Shown: piece by piece, positions 6,015 to 46,607 of the stretch
How the letters are laid out: every line of letters begins with the position of its first letter
How positions within the stretch are numbered: the first letter of the stretch is position 1
NCBI GenBank assembly: GCA_009777845.1
Contig: WRLD01000012.1
Coordinates: 1-64,000, forward strand
Direction of reading: 5' to 3'
DNA from: Defluviitaleaceae bacterium
GTDB lineage: Bacteria > Bacillota > Clostridia > Lachnospirales > WQUN01
DNA length: 64,000 bases
Made by a program: the position numbers and the translations under genes
Notes under the pieces: generated by a model
The model's database searches: none
What the model saw: only the letters and a program-made list of their open reading frames with translations
What the model was told of the DNA's origin: nothing

Positions 6015-6283
6015 AAAAAGGCTATTAAACACGGATTTAGCGGATTTACGCGGATTTACACGGATTACGCGGATAAAAAAACGTGCCAGATAAAATCCGC
6101 GTAAATCCGTTAAATCCGTGTTTGATTTACACATTTTAGTTTCGTGCGTTTGTCGTGGCGACATTCCCACCAAGCAAGGCAGTAAGGTGTTGTCTGCGAC
6201 ACCGACCACAGACCAGTCTATCAAGGCTCCGAGGCGACATTCCCACCAACCTACAGTCGGAGAAAAGGGGCAACGCCCCCCCC
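6015..6283. repeat. Family A array followed by family D repeat
   Basis: Family A units (ACACGGATTTAGCGGATTT and inverted AATCCGTTAAATCCGTGTT) span about 6030-6125. Family D sequence (GGCGACATTCCCACC twice, at 6160 and 6233) leads into a GGGGC-AAC-GCCCC hairpin at 6267-6279, next to the end of the chemotaxis gene. No gene is supported between 5694 and 6283. Confidence 0.8.
6263..6280 (-). terminator. Intrinsic terminator formed by family D repeat
   Basis: On the minus strand, GGGGC-GTT-GCCCC is followed directly by TTTT, immediately after the stop codon of the chemotaxis transducer gene. The same hairpin occurs at the end of murA (45917), so it appears to be a repeat-borne terminator. Confidence 0.6.
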
Positions 6284-7828
6284 CTAAGAGCTTAATTCCA
6301 ACAACACCAACGACTCCTGCACCAGCTTCTCAGAAATTTCCATATTGTCACTGACGGTAGACTGATTTTCGGACACTACCTTGGAAATGGTCGCCATGTT
6401 GTTTACCAAAACATCTACGCTTTCCGCTTGGTTTTGGGACGCGTCGGCGATAGACAGCACGCCCTTACTGCTTGCGATTGCTATCTGAATGGCTTCCTTT
6501 AGGCTTTGGGCGGTTTCTATGGCGGCGTTTCGGCTTTCGGCTATGGCTTGCACAGTGCGGTCTATTAGCTCGGCGGTGTTTTTTGTCGCGTCGGTACTGC
6601 GGGAAGCGAGGTTGCGTACTTCCTCTGCCACTACGGCAAAGCCCTTGCCCGCTTCGCCCGCGCGCGCGGCTTCTACCGCGGCGTTAAGTGCGAGCAGATT
6701 CGTCTGAAACGCTATATTGTCGATTGTTTTTATTATGGTATTTATTTCGCTTGCGATACGGTTTATATTGTCCATAGAGCCGAGAAGCCCCGTCATTCTT
6801 GCGTTTGCGTCCTCAAACATGCCCACCGCCTTGGTGGACTGCTCGCCCGACAGGGTCGTCACCTTGATTGTGTCCTCGATATGCCCAGAAATTTCCTCGA
6901 TGGAACTCTGCAAGCTGTCAAGCGCGTAGGACTGCTCGTCCGCGCCCTGCGATAGCTTTTCGGACACGGATTTTAGCTGCGGCACCATGTCGGAAATTGA
7001 CACGGCGGAGCGTTTTATCACGTCCAAAAGCTGCGCTTGGCTTTCTGTCATTTTTTGGCTTTCGTTCATTTGCGTTTGTACTTCCGATAGAAGATTCTCG
7101 TTTTCCTGCGACGATTGCTTTATTTTTGCTATTAACTGCTCCTGCTCCTGTCGCATGGTTTGCGATTCGAGCATTTTTTCGTTAAGCTCCTCCATGCGCC
7201 TTTTGTCGTCCTCCTCCATAGATTTCATGGCGACAATCATGCGCTCTTGCTCTTTTTCATGCGCTTCACTTTCGGCAACCTGTTGGCGTACTGTTTCCAA
7301 AAGCCCCTCTGTTTCCTTGGTTTTTGCGTTGCTTTCGTCAATAAGGTCTGTGTTCCAGCCAGTGATTTTATAGGAAAGCGCGATTGCGATATTAAATACT
7401 AATAGATTCACAATTAGCGGTTGCAAGGTGTATCTTTCCACTAAATACGAAAAATGTGTCGCCACATATACAAAGTACAAAATGTTTGTGATTATGCACT
7501 GCAAAACGAGTATCTTCTTATTATAATAAATGAGCGACATAATAGCCAAAAGCAAAAACAGCGAAAAGCTCTCAGTAACCGTACCCTTTATAAACGGCAC
7601 AATAAACAGCAAAACGACCTCGCATAGGCTTATTATGTAAATGCGAGTGACAATGGAAAAAATACCCTTCAGCCCGACACAGAGAAAAAGCGTAACAGCT
7701 AAAGTGGCGAGCAACGCAACCAATTCGACATAATTACCTGCCAAGAGATTGCTAAGCGAAAAAACCGACACGATTGAAACAATGGCAATGAGGTTGTTTT
7801 TGAATAAGGCTTCGTATTTGGATTTCAT
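6284..7828 (-). CDS. Methyl-accepting chemotaxis-type transducer with polytopic membrane N-terminus
   Basis: About 514 residues. The N-terminal 180 residues form roughly six hydrophobic helices with no large extracellular sensor domain. Then comes a long Glu/Gln/Lys-rich coiled coil (about 185-290), and a C-terminal signalling domain with the hairpin-tip region [19 protein letters not shown], followed by [13 protein letters not shown]. It should relay a membrane or intracellular signal to CheA/CheW. I chose the ATG at 7828 because AAGGGAGG lies about 9 nt upstream; the in-frame ATG at 7876 has no ribosome binding site and sits in the conserved leader. It lies directly downstream of a tRNA-Arg gene and probably shares its promoter. 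No other che gene is in the window. Confidence 0.92.
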
Positions 7829-7890
7829 TGGGTTGGCCTCCCTTGTGTTTTTGATTCGCCTTCGGCGATTTTTCATGTGCGGGTTTGCAC
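7829..7890 (-). promoter_or_regulatory. Conserved 5' leader with tandem hairpins
   Basis: Reading on the minus strand: GTGC-aaaccc-GCAC, a short A-rich spacer, TCGCC-GAA-GGCGA (7856-7868), CAAAAA, then GGGAGG. The same order recurs before the genes starting at 28864, 31635, 50381 (minus) and 61075 (minus). Function unknown; it could be an RNA regulatory site or a mobile leader repeat. Confidence 0.6.
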
Positions 7891-25432: not shown

Positions 25433-27273
25433 GGAAACCGTTTTTCGCCAGACTTATTTTCCTATCTGTACTAGACCTCTTGTTCGGGTGGTTTAGCTGG
25501 CTAGTTTCTGTTTTTGTGTTCACATATTTATTTGTGCTGGATTATTCCATTATTCACGCGGTAAACAATCGCGTATGGGTCATTTTTCTGGCAAATATAG
25601 TTTTTTTTGCCATTTGCGGCGTGTATAAAAGTCTTTGGGAACACCCCGGCATAGGTACAATGCTCCGCATAACCACTGCCGTGGCGTGTTCCTCTTTTTC
25701 TGTTTATGTTTCGCTTAGACTACTCCTTGGCTATTGGGTAAATCCTGGGCTTGGCGTTATGGCGTTTTATTTTATGCTTACGCTTGTGCTTGTTCCGCGT
25801 ATCTATAAGCGCGTTTTTGGCGTTTTGTTCCAGTATTCACGCAGATTTAGCAAGAATAAAAAAGCCGAGCGCGAAACAATACGCACGCTAATTGTAGGCG
25901 CGGGCGACAGCGCCTCGACACTGCTTTTGCACCCTAGTCAGCAAGGCTCGCGCCCGCGTAAATTTCTAGGCGTGGTGGACAACGACACACGCAAGCACGG
26001 CTATTCCCTGCATGGCGTTCGCGTTCTCGGCGGCGATAGCAAAATTCCACAGCTGGTAAGAGATTTGGACATTCACGAAATTTTAGTGGCTATTCCCTCT
26101 ATGACAAACGAGGATTTACGCCGAATAGTGCGCCTTACGCCGATTAACCGCTGTAAGGTGCGGCTTCTCACTGGGCTTTCCTCCGACAAGGCATCGGAAA
26201 TGATGCGCGACATAAACATCAGTGACCTGCTCGGCCGCCCCGAGGCCGCGCCAAGCACAGGCGAAATAAAGGCGTGGCTAAGCAAAAAAACCGCGCTAGT
26301 GACTGGCGGCGGCGGCTCGATTGGAAGCGAAATATGCCGTCAGCTAATTCAGGCGGACATAGAAAAGGTAATTATTTATGATATTTCTGAAAATAACGCA
26401 TACAACTTAAAAGAGGAGTTAATAATCAAGTTTAACCAAGCAGGGCGGTACAAGACCGCTGTGCGAATAGGCTCGGTGCAGGACGAGGCGCGGCTTAATG
26501 AGGTTTTTGAGGAATTTAAGCCCTCGGTTGTTTTCCATGCGGCGGCGTACAAGCATGTGCCTTTAATGGAGGAATGTCCGCGGCTTGCGATTGACAATAA
26601 CGTAATCGGCACGTATCTTACCGCAAAGGCCGCCATACGCTTTGGCGTGGAGCGGTTTGTGATGATTTCTACCGACAAGGCGGTGAACCCCACGAATGTG
26701 ATGGGGGCAAGTAAGCGTATTGCGGAGCTTGTTACCTTAGGTATGAATGGGGCAACTACGGAATTTGTATGCGTACGTTTTGGCAACGTATTAGATTCAA
26801 ATGGCAGTGTAATACCAAAATTTAGGCGGCAAATAGAGGCAGGCGGGCCTGTGACTGTGACACACCCCGAGATTATTCGCTATTTTATGACAATCACGGA
26901 AGCCTCGCGCCTAGTGCTGGAAGCAGGCGCAATGGCGGCGGGCGGCGAGATATTTATTCTCGACATGGGCGAGCAGGTAAAAATCGTAGACTTGGCGGAA
27001 AACCTAATACGAATGGCAGGCTTGACCCCGAAGGTAGATATACAAATAGAATTTACGGGCTTGCGGCCTGGCGAGAAGCTGTACGAGGAGCTTTTGCTTA
27101 ACGAGGAGGGCTTGGCAAAAACCGACAACAAGAAAATATTTGTGGTAAAGCCGCGTGTGTGCGAAAAATTTGACGAGCTAGTCGGCAAAATAGAAACAGG
27201 GGAAATAGGCGGCGTGTACGAATTTATAAAACATTTTGTGCCAGAATATGTGAGTGATGTTGAGTATGAATAA
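25429..27273 (+). CDS. Membrane nucleotide-sugar 4,6-dehydratase (CapD/WbpM/PglF type)
   Basis: A 614-residue protein. Four N-terminal membrane helices (about 5-125) and a CoA-binding-like Rossmann domain (TLIVGAGDSASTLL) are followed by the catalytic short-chain dehydrogenase domain, with ALVTGGGGSIGSEICRQL, HAAAYKHVPLME and the altered active site ISTDKAVNPTNVMGASKR typical of long-chain UDP-GlcNAc 4,6-dehydratases. The expected product is a UDP-4-keto-6-deoxy amino sugar. The TTG start overlaps the stop of the previous gene (TTGA), with no strong site upstream, so re-initiation is likely. It is followed by an epimerase/reductase and a phosphoglycosyltransferase, as in O-antigen and flagellin-glycan loci. 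Confidence 0.93.
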   Translation: MRKPFFARLIFLSVLDLLFGWFSWLVSVFVFTYLFVLDYSIIHAVNNRVWVIFLANIVFFAICGVYKSLWEHPGIGTMLRITTAVACSSFSVYVSLRLLLGYWVNPGLGVMAFYFMLTLVLVPRIYKRVFGVLFQYSRRFSKNKKAERETIRTLIVGAGDSASTLLLHPSQQGSRPRKFLGVVDNDTRKHGYSLHGVRVLGGDSKIPQLVRDLDIHEILVAIPSMTNEDLRRIVRLTPINRCKVRLLTGLSSDKASEMMRDINISDLLGRPEAAPSTGEIKAWLSKKTALVTGGGGSIGSEICRQLIQADIEKVIIYDISENNAYNLKEELIIKFNQAGRYKTAVRIGSVQDEARLNEVFEEFKPSVVFHAAAYKHVPLMEECPRLAIDNNVIGTYLTAKAAIRFGVERFVMISTDKAVNPTNVMGASKRIAELVTLGMNGATTEFVCVRFGNVLDSNGSVIPKFRRQIEAGGPVTVTHPEIIRYFMTITEASRLVLEAGAMAAGGEIFILDMGEQVKIVDLAENLIRMAGLTPKVDIQIEFTGLRPGEKLYEELLLNEEGLAKTDNKKIFVVKPRVCEKFDELVGKIETGEIGGVYEFIKHFVPEYVSDVEYE

Positions 27274-28153
27274 GGGACAGTGCAGGGTGCTTGTTTTTGG
27301 TGAGGGTAGCTATATTGGGCGGAGCTTTGTGAGGTTTGCTGCGGCAAGGTCTGATGTGGAAAATTCTGGCACTGGTTTTGAGGTGTCGGGCCTTAGCTCT
27401 CGCGGCGATAGTTGGAAAGGCGTTGATTTTTCCAGTTTTGATACGGTTTTGTTTTGTGCAGGAATCGCGCATGTTTCGCCTAAAAAAGTGCCGCGTGATG
27501 TGTATTTTGCTGTAAATTGCGATTTGGCGGTAGAAGTAGCCAAAAAAGCGAAAAGGGACGGTGTGGGGCAGTTTGTTTTTTTAAGTACAATGGCGGCGGC
27601 TTCGCCGCTTGTGACTTCGGCGGACTTTGGTGGGAATGTCGTCACGAGGGGTAGTTCGGCGGTGAATTTTTACGGTCAAAGCAAATACGAAGCCGAAAAA
27701 CAGTTGCAAGCCCTAGAAAGCGGCAATTTCAAGATTTGCATAGTACGTCCGCCGATGGTTTACGGTGCAGGCTGTAAGGGCAATTTCCCAAGGCTAGTAA
27801 GGCTCGCCAAGCATACGCCGATTTTTCCCGATGTGCCAAACAAGCGCAGCATGATTTTTATAGACAATTTGTGTGCGTTTTTGTTGCGGCTTATTGAAAA
27901 TGGGAGCAGGGGCGTGTACCTGCCCCAAAATAGGGAATGGGTAAATACTACGGAGCTAGTGGTGTTGATTAGGCAAGCGTTGGGAAAAAAGACATATACT
28001 ACCAAGATTTTTAACTGGCTGATTAGGCTTTTTATGGGCTTGCCAGTAGTAAATAAGCTGTTCGGAAGCCTTGTATATGCTCGGGATAATGATGATTTTT
28101 TGTGTGGGGAGGTTGAATTTGGGGAGAGCGTGAGGGCTTCCTTAATGGATTAA
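27266..28153 (+). CDS. NAD-dependent epimerase/dehydratase (sugar 4-ketoreductase-like)
   Basis: A 295-residue short-chain dehydrogenase of the extended type. It has VLVFGEGSYIGRSF (nucleotide binding), a FLSTMAA strand and the catalytic NFYGQSKYEAEKQL (Tyr-x3-Lys), then VRPPMVYGAG. The ATG at 27266 overlaps the preceding stop (ATGAATAA); GTG and ATG codons three or four positions earlier are alternatives. Placed between a 4,6-dehydratase and a sugar-1-phosphate transferase, it probably reduces the 4-keto intermediate to an N-acetyl-quinovosamine- or fucosamine-like sugar, by analogy with WbpV or FnlB. That assignment is inference from context. Confidence 0.88.
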   Translation: MNKGQCRVLVFGEGSYIGRSFVRFAAARSDVENSGTGFEVSGLSSRGDSWKGVDFSSFDTVLFCAGIAHVSPKKVPRDVYFAVNCDLAVEVAKKAKRDGVGQFVFLSTMAAASPLVTSADFGGNVVTRGSSAVNFYGQSKYEAEKQLQALESGNFKICIVRPPMVYGAGCKGNFPRLVRLAKHTPIFPDVPNKRSMIFIDNLCAFLLRLIENGSRGVYLPQNREWVNTTELVVLIRQALGKKTYTTKIFNWLIRLFMGLPVVNKLFGSLVYARDNDDFLCGEVEFGESVRASLMD

Positions 28154-37754: not shown

Positions 37755-39505
37755 TGGAGGACAATGGAAGTTTTATAAGGTCAATAATACGCAAGCAAGG
37801 CACGCTTAACATACTGGCGTTGCTCGTGTCGGTCGTAGGGCCTATTGTGTGCACTAGCCTTACAGGCGCGTATTTTGGTCGTGATGGGCTTGCGATTATG
37901 GCGTTATGCTCGCCGCTGTTTTTGGCGGCATCGTTTTTTGGCTCGCTTCCTAGCGGCGCGCAGATTTTATGCTCTGGCTTTATCGCCAAGGACGAGCTGG
38001 ACAACGTAGACAAGGTATACAGCGCGACCTTGGTCGTCACCTTTGCCGTGGCGGTGGCTGTTTCTGCTGTGCTTTTGGTGTTAAAAATCCCCCTGCTTAC
38101 ACTCGTGGCAGGGGAAATAAGCCCCGAGCTGTCGGTGTATTACACGTACTTTGTGTCATATGCCTTTGTTACTATGTTTGCTTATATTCCGCTGTATTTC
38201 AGTAAGGTGGTAGGCAGACCCGAAATCGGGCTGTTGATGACCGTTACCATGTCGGCGGTGTCTATTGTGGCGAGCTTGTTACTTATCCGCGTTTTGGGCA
38301 TTTCTGCCATTGCGTTGGGGCAAGCTATCGGCACGCTTGTGGGGCTGGCGGCTTCCATGCTACGGCTACGCAAGTATTTCACATTCAAAATGCCTAGGTT
38401 TAAGCAGCTGTACCTTTTGCCAATGCTTGCCGCCAGTAGCCCTCTTGGGCTGTCGCGCCTGTATATGCTCATACGTACAATTTTGCTAAACGCATTGTTC
38501 CTAAGCCTAGGCGGAAGCGGCGCGCTGGCGGTGTATGGCGTGGTGGCTATGCTACAGCGGTTTACAACGGCGGCGGTCAACGGCGTTTCGCAGACCCTCG
38601 TACCGCTAGTAGGCGTTTTCCACGAGGAGCAGGACACCACAAGCATAAAGCAGACCATGAAATCCGTGCTAATCTACGGCAATTCGCTGTTGCTTGCTAT
38701 CGGCATTGTGCTTTGCGTATTCCGTTATCAAATTGCGGCGGCGTTTGGGCTTACTGACGATAAGGCGTTGTTTGCGTATGCCATGCCGTTTTATGCGGTG
38801 TATATCGTGCTGTTGCTTAACGCGTCTGTGCTGTCCTCGTATTACAACGCCACCAGGCATATGTTTTTGGCTAATATCATACCGTTTTTGCAGGAGCTTG
38901 CGCTTATTTGTGCAGGTGCGTATACCCTAGCGGCGGTTTTTGGCATAAACCAAATATGGGCGGCGTTCCCTATTTCCAGCGCGGGTACGCTAGTGGTGCT
39001 ATTTGCCGCGTTGCTTGCAGTCAAGCACAAAAACAGGGCGCTTACTATTCCGTTACTGCAAAATAGCCGATTGGAGCGTGACGGGCGGTATATTTCCTTC
39101 TCTGTAGATAGCCAAATAGAGCAAGCAAGCGTAGCCGCCGAGCGAATCAGCGCGTTTTGTGAGGAAAACGGCGTTTCGCCTAAGCAGGCAATGCAAATAT
39201 CAATGTCGCTTGAGGAGCTAATTGTACTAATTATTAACCACAATAAGCGTAATAATTTCTCAATATCGGTGCGTTTATTTTTGCTGTATCCGCTTGAGGA
39301 AAAAACCGATAGGGACGGCACAATTATTCTGCGTATACGTAACGCAGGCGACAGCTTTAACGCCATAGAATATTATGAAAAAAATATAGCTGATGACATT
39401 GAAAAAAGCATAGAGCTTATGGGCATGAAATACATAGTCCAGGCCGCGAATGTCATTTACTACAGACAAACCTTTGGAGTGAATAGCCTTGTCGTGTTAC
39501 TATGA
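37754..39505 (+). CDS. MATE-family transporter fused to a C-terminal RsbW-like ATPase domain
   Basis: A 583-residue fusion. Residues 1-440 form about twelve hydrophobic helices with MATE features (LTGAYFGRDGLAIMALCSPL, FGSLPSGAQILCSGF, and a second half starting SSPLGLSRLYMLIRTILL). Residues 455-583 resemble an anti-sigma GHKL domain, with QISMSLEELIVLIINHNK as the N box and IRNAGDSFNAIEYYEKN at G1. The G1 Asp is replaced by Asn and the lid motif GLGL by MGMK, so it may bind but not hydrolyse ATP. Gene order STAS-STAS-fusion suggests that partner switching regulates transport. No separate ribosome binding site; coupled by TAATG. Confidence 0.85.
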   Translation: MEDNGSFIRSIIRKQGTLNILALLVSVVGPIVCTSLTGAYFGRDGLAIMALCSPLFLAASFFGSLPSGAQILCSGFIAKDELDNVDKVYSATLVVTFAVAVAVSAVLLVLKIPLLTLVAGEISPELSVYYTYFVSYAFVTMFAYIPLYFSKVVGRPEIGLLMTVTMSAVSIVASLLLIRVLGISAIALGQAIGTLVGLAASMLRLRKYFTFKMPRFKQLYLLPMLAASSPLGLSRLYMLIRTILLNALFLSLGGSGALAVYGVVAMLQRFTTAAVNGVSQTLVPLVGVFHEEQDTTSIKQTMKSVLIYGNSLLLAIGIVLCVFRYQIAAAFGLTDDKALFAYAMPFYAVYIVLLLNASVLSSYYNATRHMFLANIIPFLQELALICAGAYTLAAVFGINQIWAAFPISSAGTLVVLFAALLAVKHKNRALTIPLLQNSRLERDGRYISFSVDSQIEQASVAAERISAFCEENGVSPKQAMQISMSLEELIVLIINHNKRNNFSISVRLFLLYPLEEKTDRDGTIILRIRNAGDSFNAIEYYEKNIADDIEKSIELMGMKYIVQAANVIYYRQTFGVNSLVVLL

Positions 39506-40577
39506 GAAGCCCTTTTGTATAAGAGCCGCCGCCGACGGCGATTTCGAGCGTATAGCAGACTGCTTTGCACAGGTACGCGGACGTAACAACTATGTTGCAA
39601 ATATGTACGAGCCTGATTTTTTGCGGAACAGCGGCAAATATGAGCTGTTTGTGGCGGTGAGTGAGGGCGAGCTGGCTGGAGCTATGGGAATAACTCGGGA
39701 TTTGTTTTGTCCTGATTCGTCTTGTGATAGGACGCTGTTAGGGCTTCGAGGCGATATTCCCACCATAGGTCAGTCGGAGAAAAGGGGCAACGCCCCTAAT
39801 GTTATGTGTTTGTTGTCTGTTATGCCGTCCTTTTTGGGGAAGGGCGTAGCCAGTGCGTTGCTTGAGCATGTACGCGACACCCTGCGTGGGCGTGACGTAC
39901 CTGCCGTCAAGGCAAAGGTAGTCACAGACAGCGCCGCCGTACAGCATATTCTGGAAAAGCTAGGCTTTACGCCCACAGGCCTACTGCTCGGCGTAAAGGA
40001 CGGCATAAACAAGCCCATTCCCACTAATGACAAAAACTCACTAGCCGTATATGTCGCAAATAAAGCGGTGAAAGATGTCGGCGTGCTGTATATACCCGTT
40101 GGGCTTCATGCTATGGCGGAGGGGGTGTATGGAGAGCTTGGTGTGGTGGTTTGTTGTATGGCGGAGGCAAGCTCCCCCTGTAGGGGACGGACTTGTCCGT
40201 CCCGAGTTCCGCAGGATTGCAGTGTAGAAGCAAGCACTCCCCACGATATGCAGGGCGGTCAATCCCCCTCCCTACAACAAAACTTTGACGAACACAACAA
40301 AGTCCTATATACTCAAATTCTACACTTCGACGATTCCACGCTTTCCGCACTAGAACGTGACGGCGCGACCTCCATTGTCCTACTTAACATAAACCACCCA
40401 TCAGCCATAACAGGCTTTAACGCGCTACAAAACGCAGGCTACAAATTCTGCGGCTTCGACCCGCTAGGTAGCACCTGCGAGAATGTTATATTTTACAAGG
40501 GGCTTGCTACCTTGGCAGAGATTAAAAAAACGGACAGACTAGAAGCAACAATGAAACGCGTATTTAACGAATTTTAA
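39489..40577 (+). CDS. GNAT acetyltransferase carrying two in-frame repeat insertions
   Basis: A 362-residue protein. The GNAT core includes FCIRAAADGDFERIADCF, FVAVSEGELAGAMGI and the acetyl-CoA loop MPSFLGKGVASALLEHV. A second, C-terminal domain (about 185-362) is not recognised. Two segments are translated repeats: residues about 83-103 (GLRGDIPTIGQSEKRGNAP) come from family D, and about 228-260 (SSPCRGRTCPSRVPQDCS) from a family B arm plus flank. Both preserve the frame. The TTG start lies inside the end of the MATE gene (17-nt overlap) with TTTGGAG about 10 nt upstream. Acceptor unknown; the fold may tolerate the loops. Confidence 0.8.
   Translation: MSCYYEKPFCIRAAADGDFERIADCFAQVRGRNNYVANMYEPDFLRNSGKYELFVAVSEGELAGAMGITRDLFCPDSSCDRTLLGLRGDIPTIGQSEKRGNAPNVMCLLSVMPSFLGKGVASALLEHVRDTLRGRDVPAVKAKVVTDSAAVQHILEKLGFTPTGLLLGVKDGINKPIPTNDKNSLAVYVANKAVKDVGVLYIPVGLHAMAEGVYGELGVVVCCMAEASSPCRGRTCPSRVPQDCSVEASTPHDMQGGQSPSLQQNFDEHNKVLYTQILHFDDSTLSALERDGATSIVLLNINHPSAITGFNALQNAGYKFCGFDPLGSTCENVIFYKGLATLAEIKKTDRLEATMKRVFNEF
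39735..39797. repeat. Family D element inside the acetyltransferase gene
   Basis: GGGCTTCGAGGCGATATTCC, then CAGTCGGAGAAAAGGGGC-AAC-GCCCC, matches the intergenic copy at 6215-6280. It is read through in frame just before the conserved acetyl-CoA-binding strand. In this orientation the A-tract precedes the hairpin, so it would not terminate the gene's own transcript. Confidence 0.8.
40180..40206. repeat. Single family B arm inside the acetyltransferase gene
   Basis: GTAGGGGACGGACTTGTCCG with TCCCGAG following; the palindrome centre is ACTTGT instead of ATTTAT. Only the left arm is present, and the reading frame is kept. Confidence 0.8.
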
Positions 40578-44614: not shown

Positions 44615-45991
44615 ATGCGTCAGTACAAAATTTTAGGTGGGCAGCGATTGTCGGGCGAAATCGCAATCGGCGGCGCAAAAAACGCCGTTTTGCCGATTAT
44701 TGCCGCCGCCTGCCTAAACCAAAGCGAGGTTTATATACACAATTGTCCGCGCATTTCCGATGTGTTAGATTCTGTGGAAATTTTGGAATGTATCGGCTGT
44801 AGCGTCGAGTTTTTGGGAAATACGCTGAAAATAAGCTCCAGCGCGGGCTTAAAGTACGATGTTCCCGATGAATGTGCAACAAAAATGCGTTCCTCGATTT
44901 TGTTCCTGGGCGCGTTACTTTCGAGGGAAAAGCGAGCAAATCTCGCGCTTCCAGGCGGTTGCAGTATAGGCGAAAGAGCCATAGACCTGCATTTGCACGG
45001 CCTCGAATTGATGGGCGCGAAAATTACCAGAACCGAGGAAAAGCTGTTTTGCGAAACAGAGGGGCTAAGGGGCGCGAAAATCAATCTGGCGTTTGCGAGC
45101 GTAGGCGCGACAGAAAATCTGATGATTGCCGCCGTGAAAGCAAGGGGCGAAACAATTATCGAAAACGCCGCACGCGAGCCGGAAATCGTAGACCTTGCCA
45201 GATTCCTAAAAACGCTAGGCGCGAATATTCGCGGCGCGGGAACAAAAACGATTGTAATAAAAGGCGTAGACCGCCTTAATTCCCATGCCTCGCACGAAAC
45301 CATGCCCGACAGAATAGTGGCGGGTACGTATCTTCTCGCGGCGGCAATGACAGGCGGCGAAATCACGCTCGCGAACGTAAGACCCTTTGACCTCGCGCCG
45401 TTTGCGTCCTACCTCACGGAAATGGGGTGCAAGCTATACCCCGACGACAATTGCGTGTCGCTGGCCGCGCCAAAACGCCTTCTCGCCGTGCCGCGAATAA
45501 CGACCAAGGTTCACCCAGGCTTTCCCACCGATATGCAGGCGCAATTTGTCGCCGCGCTGTCTATCGCGGACGGCCAGAGCGAGGTCACGGAAACCATTTT
45601 TGAGGAACGCTACAAGCACGTACAGGAGCTACGCAAAATGGGCGCGGACATTCGTCTAACCGCCGACAAAAAAACCTTCATAACCAAGGGCGTGGAACGC
45701 CTGCACGGCGCGACAGTAACGGCGCATGACCTACGCTGCGGCGCGGCGTTGGTGCTTGCAGGGCTTGCCGCCGAGGGCGAAACGCTCGTAAAAGATGCGC
45801 AGTATGTAGAGCGTGGATATGCTAGCTTGGAGAGTGATTTAAGGTCGTTGGGCACGGAGATTTGTTTGGTTGGCGCGGGGGGAGAGGCGGTTTTTGGTGG
45901 GGGGGCTTTGGTGGGAGGGGCATCGCCCCTTTTCTCCGACTGTTCCTTGGTGGGAATGTCGCCGCGAAGCCTTGACAGCTTTCGCGTATAA
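44615..45991 (+). CDS. murA: UDP-N-acetylglucosamine 1-carboxyvinyltransferase with repeat-derived tail
   Basis: A 458-residue enzyme for the first committed step of peptidoglycan synthesis. Substrate-binding Lys in [10 protein letters not shown], catalytic Cys in [26 protein letters not shown] and [17 protein letters not shown] are all present. MurA is normally about 418 residues; here the last 35-40 (from about [12 protein letters not shown] to DSFRV) are encoded by a family D repeat, and the natural end is probably near [12 protein letters not shown] chose the ATG at 44615 from MurA alignment; GGGGAG lies about 12 nt upstream. The frame extends further upstream but overlaps miaA on the other strand. 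Confidence 0.95.
45917..45934 (+). terminator. Family D hairpin terminator inside the murA 3' end
   Basis: GGGGC-ATC-GCCCC followed by TTTT, within the last 25 codons of murA. If it terminates efficiently, part of the murA transcripts would lack a stop codon. Confidence 0.5.
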
Positions 45992-46607
45992 GGTTGCGGT
46001 TAATCGTGGGGGGAGGTTTGGGTCGGCGTGTGGTGTTGTCTGGGAAAACGACTTAGGCAATACTTTACTGCTTGCTTGGTGGGAATGTCGCCTCGAAGCC
46101 TTAGGGAGGTTGTTCCTGTTCTTTGAGTGGTTGGTGGTGGGGGTGTTGCTACGGCAAACGCATGAAGCTAAAATGTGTGAATCAAACACGAATTTGGCGG
46201 ATTTAAGAGATTCAAGGGATTCACACGGATTTAACGGATTTTCACGGATTTTATCTAGCGTGTCTTTTTATCCGCGTAATCCGTGTAAACCCGTTAAATC
46301 CGTGTTTGATAGCCTTTTGTAGGGGACGGATTTATCCGTCCCGAGGTACGCACGTTCGTCAATTCGGGGACGGGCAACGTCCATTAAAGCAGAGCGAGGT
46401 AATCTCGGGACGGATAAATCCGTCCCCTACATTTAGGCGGATTCACGCAGATTTATGCGGATTCTTGCACGAACGAATCCGCATAAATCCGTGAAAATCC
46501 GCTGAATCCGTGTTTAATTCACACATTTCGGCTTCGTGCGTTTGTCGTGTAGCTTGACTGACTATAAGTCGCCGATAATTCGCCGAAGCTACCAAGCCGC
46601 TTTTGTA
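45992..46607. repeat. Repeat-filled gap: families E, D, A, B, A
   Basis: A family E hairpin (46033-46075), family D (46078-46105), a family A inverted array (46180-46310), a family B element (46319-46430) and a second family A array (46434-46520). The final part resembles the spacer at 15040 (CACATTT..GCTTCGTGCGTTTGTCGTG). No gene is supported. Confidence 0.8.
46319..46430. repeat. Family B palindromic element
   Basis: 112 bp standard copy, with core GTACGCACGTTCGTCAATTC. Confidence 0.9.

Follow-up and report, generated by a model that had tools for sequence, protein, structure and literature searches.

The dispersed palindromic element D of a Defluviitaleaceae bacterium (Lachnospirales) probably represents a terminator-like repeat whose stop-free form is tolerated by protein genes as a translated insert. 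It was found in the window, which is the whole stretch of 64,000 nucleotides analysed here, on contig C12 of a genome of 2.98 Mb (67 contigs, 96.65% complete, probably a MAG). The nearest named relative, judged by TsaD with 64% identity, is the MAG Defluviitaleaceae bacterium Emb289P1bin119, and we take termite guts to be the source of MAGs of this kind.

The open reading frame carrying D in the window is located at positions 39489-40577 of the plus strand and encodes a GNAT acetyltransferase of 362 amino acid residues with a TTG start, the true start being uncertain. It matches the Pfam profile Acetyltransf_1 with 33.5 bits (gathering score 20.7). Residues 45-160 align with profile positions 29-116, leaving a surplus of about 28 residues, and the match spans the D element. 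The preliminary description of this DNA had claimed that D lies in frame in the gene, just before the acetyl-CoA-binding strand. Both claims are borne out: the element (39735-39797, plus strand, with a 60-nt core at 39737-39796) corresponds to residues 83-103 of the open frame, with the peptide GLRGDIPTIGQSEKRGNAPNV, and the position before the strand holds because D ends directly ahead of VMCLLSVMPSFLGKGVASALL, which aligns with solved GNAT structures. Among 115 other genomes no orthologue of this reading frame was detected at E<=1e-8; just two weak GNAT matches were seen within the genus, and none in the genome contig collection or in plasmids. An AlphaFold2 model of the reading frame alone was uninformative (mean pLDDT 31).

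The copies of D terminate with GCCCC and begin near AAGGCTTCG, the exact 5' end being uncertain. The element is predicted to form three separate hairpins in place of the terminal inverted repeats that, with a target-site duplication, characterize a MITE. In the GNAT copy the terminal hairpin GGGGC-AAC-GCCCC occupies 39784-39796 (plus strand), and in other copies it is kept by compensatory changes. Comparison of the copies also reveals a hypervariable pentanucleotide, N5, which is TAGGT at 39766-39770 on the same strand. The preceding 5' segment (39716-39734, plus strand) is weakly conserved; other copies have a T run together with CTAGnAAGC here, whereas the segment is degenerate in the GNAT copy. 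A second D1 copy (45917-45976, minus strand) lies at the C-terminus of an EPSP-synthase-type reading frame (44615-45988, plus strand), the last codons of which lie within or beside D. A third D1 copy (6220-6279, plus strand) is non-genic and separated by 7 nt from the 3' end of the reading frame 6287-7876 (minus strand), and a D-related copy (27598-27647, minus strand) lies in a called reading frame of weak coding score, 27257-28150.

At E<=0.001 the D segment of the GNAT reading frame matches at least 51 sites of the genome, 40 of the 167 first-look candidates having been scored, and a covariance model of D, for which no more than 150 candidates were scored, gives at least 149 matches over the whole genome; the true number is probably higher. 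A detailed survey covered 754,185 nt, comprising the window and 80 stretches picked around repeat matches, or about one quarter of the genome; our own dicodon caller assigned 599 genes to it, making up 76% of the DNA. In this survey, 213 D copies were located with a nucleotide profile built up from the copy in the window. Of these, 62 lie within called genes, and 51, distributed over 36 genes, are internal, with at least 30 residues on either side. The preliminary description had proposed a search for other proteins with a translated repeat; for D, internal copies are found in 36 of 599 genes.

The copies fall into subfamilies, of which D1 is recognized by the signature GGCTTCGAGGCGAY... and D2 by GGCTCGTGACGAY... 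The share found in genes differs greatly between these two: 54/100 for D1 and 1/59 for D2 (P=3e-13), with 0/10 for D3 and 7/44 for unclassified copies. By a stricter motif count the values are 48/81, 2/47 and 4/12 for D1, D2 and D3, respectively. The peptide encoded by D1 in genes is mostly a single 19-residue form in one orientation and a single 20-residue form in the other; the internal D1 copies tabulated for their peptides, 15 and 30 by orientation, include a few in other frames.

The use of reading frames is strongly biased. The core can be read in 56 of the in-gene copies; one frame is used by 37 of the 41 opposed to their gene and by 13 of the 15 in the same orientation. When internal copies are counted per gene and compared with the frequency of open frames among copies outside genes, one frame accounts for 24/27 in the opposite orientation (P=4e-7) and 8/10 in the same orientation (P=0.02); against the openness within in-gene copies, the opposite-orientation value still gives P=3e-4. 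Among tandem D copies, spacings divisible by three make up 10 of 13 within genes versus 14 of 51 outside (P=0.003). A stop-making TAn loop occurs in 0/20 in-gene opposed copies versus 9/24 non-genic D1 copies (P=0.002), counting only copies that fit the hairpin pattern. Since they are free of this loop, the in-gene opposed copies look like survivors of selection for read-through. The D2 copies outside genes also have open frames, yet are nearly absent from genes, so that openness alone cannot explain the difference between D1 and D2.

The hosts of D include TsaD, IspG, IspH, MnmE, topoisomerase III and EPSP synthase. In the TsaD host, query residues 129-170 stand opposite three residues of the known structure (PDB code 6n9a). 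The preliminary description had taken the inserted segments to be missing from orthologues, and this was checked on TsaD instead of the GNAT protein: the D peptide is present in 0/22 orthologues, congeners included, these 22 being the ones that a search motif recovered from the 29 loci tried. In one congener (G003, locus L099) this TsaD loop carries an insert that is unrelated to D and longer than 50 residues. The topoisomerase III host shows a break of 25 residues between the adjacent chain positions 391 and 392, the main alignment gap of the IspG host consists of 18 extra residues at the D peptide, and in the MnmE and EPSP synthase hosts the alignment resumes on either side of D. IspH, amidohydrolase, GCS2 and OGG each have a single Pfam match running through D, as does the GNAT reading frame of the window. 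In PurL, D with a nested hairpin lies ahead of the amidotransferase domain. Where the insertion sites are visible, they are loops or linkers. Two further hosts, Orn/DAP decarboxylase and M20 peptidase, were not counted among the interrupted folds, since their Pfam matches could be discontinuous even without D. Split genes were sought with Pfam at all 10 D copies tightly placed between same-strand genes (neighbours within 60 nt), and none was found; one neighbouring gene had no Pfam match. At L218:3097-4404 a single reading frame comprises IspD and RNase H with a D array between them, and the repeat may have joined two genes.

Outside genes the location of D is also highly specific. Of 151 non-genic copies, 128 have a 3' end as their closest gene boundary, and 121 of these 128 are opposed to the gene. 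Within 80 nt of a 3' end there are 96 opposed copies versus 4 in the same orientation, and 77/151 non-genic copies lie within 40 nt of a 3' end versus 21% of random non-genic placements. Read from the gene, a non-genic copy has the form GGGGC-nnn-GCCCC-TTTT with the hairpin facing the gene, and many copies supply or touch the stop codon (distances 0, 1 and -8). This opposed arrangement at 3' ends, often in contact with the stop codon, is the reason for describing D as terminator-like. The T run following the hairpin is short, only four T. With D1 and D2 taken together it is broken more often in opposed genes than at 3' ends (P=0.002); for D1 alone the value is P=0.18.

The pentanucleotide N5 behaves differently in dispersed and tandem copies. 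In 27 dispersed D1 pairs with 39 identical core positions, which are not independent because they represent few core types, N5 differs at 3.85 of 5 positions (about 3.33 at random) and the 20 nt upstream differ at 13.5/20. The core of the GNAT copy is shared with five other copies, each having a different pentamer. In nine tandem pairs N5 differs at 1.6 of 5 positions on average (0 to 4). N5 is therefore random between dispersed copies and similar in tandems, and it seems to be inherited in local duplication and not on dispersal. A guide role of N5, with the pentamer either matching the flanking DNA as its copy or complementing it, was also considered; the best z value, 3.9 in 1108 tests, was borderline, and there was no convincing fixed offset. 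A global stem between the 5' T run and the 3' sequence AAAAGGGG was dropped, because the 5' segment varies as described between copies of identical core and the T run at the TsaD copy consists of host codons.

The variable site of D also accommodates other repeats. One of them, nested there at L071:7338-7430 and L072:6236-6328, is a perfect hairpin (GTTGATGTTTTGCG...CGCAAAACATCAAC) about 33 nt long, which itself occurs in frame in several genes (L212, L230, L260, L266 and L269). Another repeat, AGGCAGTAAGGTGTTGTC...GACAACACC, breaks D at this site at L054:4447-4550 and, in the window, at 6153 and 46074-46103. The L054 copy has ACCAAGA on either side, which could be a target duplication.

In the search with the covariance model, at least 149 D-like matches in the source genome compare with at least 12 in congener G006, at least 110 weak matches in congener G002 and 0-1 in the other congeners. 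Ten D-like loci were inspected in each of G006 and G002, and most of them are outside long reading frames. The element in G002 is diverged and has another central hairpin. Ten loci of this genome (L210, L233, L235, L237, L239, L241, L243, L245, L247 and L248) carry the D-related element; its 5' segment is conserved and similar to TTTTTTATATGCTAGGAAACTG, and by eye its central hairpin is variable and apparently covarying. A DNA search of 146 genomes detected D only in the source genome (G000) and G006, with one short match in G107, which belongs to another family. D was not found in phages, plasmids or IMG/VR contigs, and in Rfam searches over eight sources, the window included, RNase P and tRNA were the sole families to reach the gathering score.

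The GNAT gene contains a second insert of a different type, repeat B. It is an in-frame composite of 132 nt, or 44 codons, with approximate boundaries at 40150-40281 (plus strand), and its ends are imperfect inverted repeats. Three REP-like hairpins with a GTA(G) tag were read by eye at 40156-40180, 40180-40204 and 40251-40275, the last one reversed. The arm at 40180-40204 (plus strand) combines a GTAG tag with a GGGACGGA/TCCGTCCC hairpin of -15.4 kcal/mol. The preliminary description had B at 40180-40206 in frame, adding about 30 residues; the frame is correct, and the length has to be replaced by that of the 44-codon composite. The tagged-hairpin pattern has 245 matches in the 754 kb, frequently as inverted pairs, of which just 2/245 lie within called genes, and for this reason the insert in the GNAT gene is an exceptional REP cluster. 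The earlier view that repeats are tolerated in frame within coding genes is well supported for D and is weaker for B, which is in frame here. The other repeats counted by pattern avoid genes as well, with 0 to 4 in-gene copies each out of 19 to 156, the exception being the nested hairpin of D, about 33 nt long, for which 12 of 28 half-sites are in genes. The large families outside genes include AATCCGCGAAAATCC (156). Overall, 15-mers occurring six or more times cover approximately 7.4% of the 754 kb, almost all of it outside genes.

These arrangements allow us to propose how D may persist. Outside genes it would park behind stop codons, where it resembles a mobile intrinsic terminator, because its hairpin and T run face the gene just behind the stop codon; both the terminator activity and the mobility are putative. 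Within reading frames, the anatomy of D1 is such that the host would be translated straight through it, with a peptide of about 20 residues added to the protein. The ribosome trailing the polymerase could keep the D hairpin from ending transcription inside the gene. The GNAT gene of the window would be one such D1 host.

The in-frame location might in principle be due to chance in spurious reading frames or pseudogenes, given that on average about four of the six D1 frames are open. This is hardly credible, since the hosts are conserved domain proteins matched on either side of the insert and only two of the six frames are mostly used, a bias that exceeds openness. It is also quite improbable that D is excised from the transcript, or passed over during translation, in the manner of a mini-intron or bypass element that leaves the proteins normal. 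Such a mechanism would suit a structured element within conserved, probably essential enzymes. However, skipped DNA needs neither a particular frame nor the absence of stops, whereas in-gene D is frame-biased beyond openness, shows the stop-making loop in none of 20 opposed copies and has tandem spacings mostly in threes.

Another explanation regards D as an immobile site of early origin, kept under constraint by some function such as termination or binding, in which the variable 5' flank and N5 reflect age. The conserved core beside a variable flank and N5, the compensatory changes in the pairs of the terminal hairpin and the single orientation at gene 3' ends would all agree with this. We consider it unlikely, because none of the 22 orthologues recovered for TsaD, those of congeners among them, has the D copies of the host, and copy number differs sharply between congeners (149 here, 0-12 in eight others, and 110 weak matches in G002, all of them lower bounds). 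The preferred reading, a terminator-like repeat with a tolerated stop-free form, could be extended to a more specific scheme, which we offer only as a tentative possibility. D might be a mobile stop-and-terminate module, placed behind genes in one orientation, that has split into the stop-carrying 3'-end form D2 and the stop-free form D1; D1 would spread into protein interiors and even join neighbouring proteins, as with the D array linking IspD and RNase H, and N5 would be rewritten at each dispersal. Under this scheme the unrelated pentamers in otherwise identical copies would point to an undescribed copying mechanism.

It is useful to compare D with known systems. Rickettsia palindromic elements (RPEs) were reportedly described by Ogata et al. 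in 2000 and 2002. D resembles them as a dispersed palindromic repeat with many in-frame copies in unrelated metabolic genes (51 internal copies in 36 genes), a conserved peptide and retained host domains. The proposal of the preliminary description, that an RPE-like repeat is tolerated in frame in another lineage, gains support for D from these 36 genes and from the absence of the peptide in 22 TsaD orthologues. RPEs are about 150 bp in length and are described as the case of unusually high frequency (PMC10969869), and they carry the tetranucleotide CGTC as a tag at one end (PMC3733652). D, in contrast, occurs in Bacillota and not Alphaproteobacteria, measures about 60-82 nt, shows no CGTC tag, is used in both orientations, contains the hypervariable 5-mer and, outside genes, lies at gene 3' ends in one orientation. 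D1 is like RPEs in its mode of life; the missing end tag and the different length and lineage are the reasons for not filing it among them.

The B arms, with a GTAG tag, a hairpin and frequent inverted pairs, resemble the GTAG REP/BIME elements (PMC3733652), and the order of tag and palindrome at high copy number is found in the 245 matches of B. Unlike these systems, the 96.65%-complete genome has no match to the RAYT-type transposase Y1_Tnp (PF01797), which may be lost or located in a gap, and the GTAG tag is absent from D. RU (ERIC-type) repeats of 103-168 bp with reading frames are found in genes (Delihas 2007, PMC2759123). D would be similar as a small, putatively mobile repeat translated within annotated genes, but its hosts and length differ. 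The pneumococcal SPRITE, a dispersed repeat resembling a Rho-independent terminator, is likened to D by name alone (PMC10969869). Within the accessible literature on in-frame repeats in Clostridia and termite-gut bacteria and on palindromic elements in genes, most subscription journals being outside its scope, D was not recognized.

The coexistence in one genome of the gene-invading D1 and the nearly gene-avoiding D2 makes testable an old question, namely what lets a selfish repeat live in proteins. The invasion of working genes by in-frame repeats has, to our knowledge, been known mainly in Rickettsia, whose members are obligate intracellular bacteria, and D would represent a second case, in a gut-type lineage of Bacillota with a 3.0-Mb genome. 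Its copies amount to many natural insertion experiments in conserved enzymes such as TsaD, IspG, IspH and topoisomerase III, marking permissive sites in these proteins.
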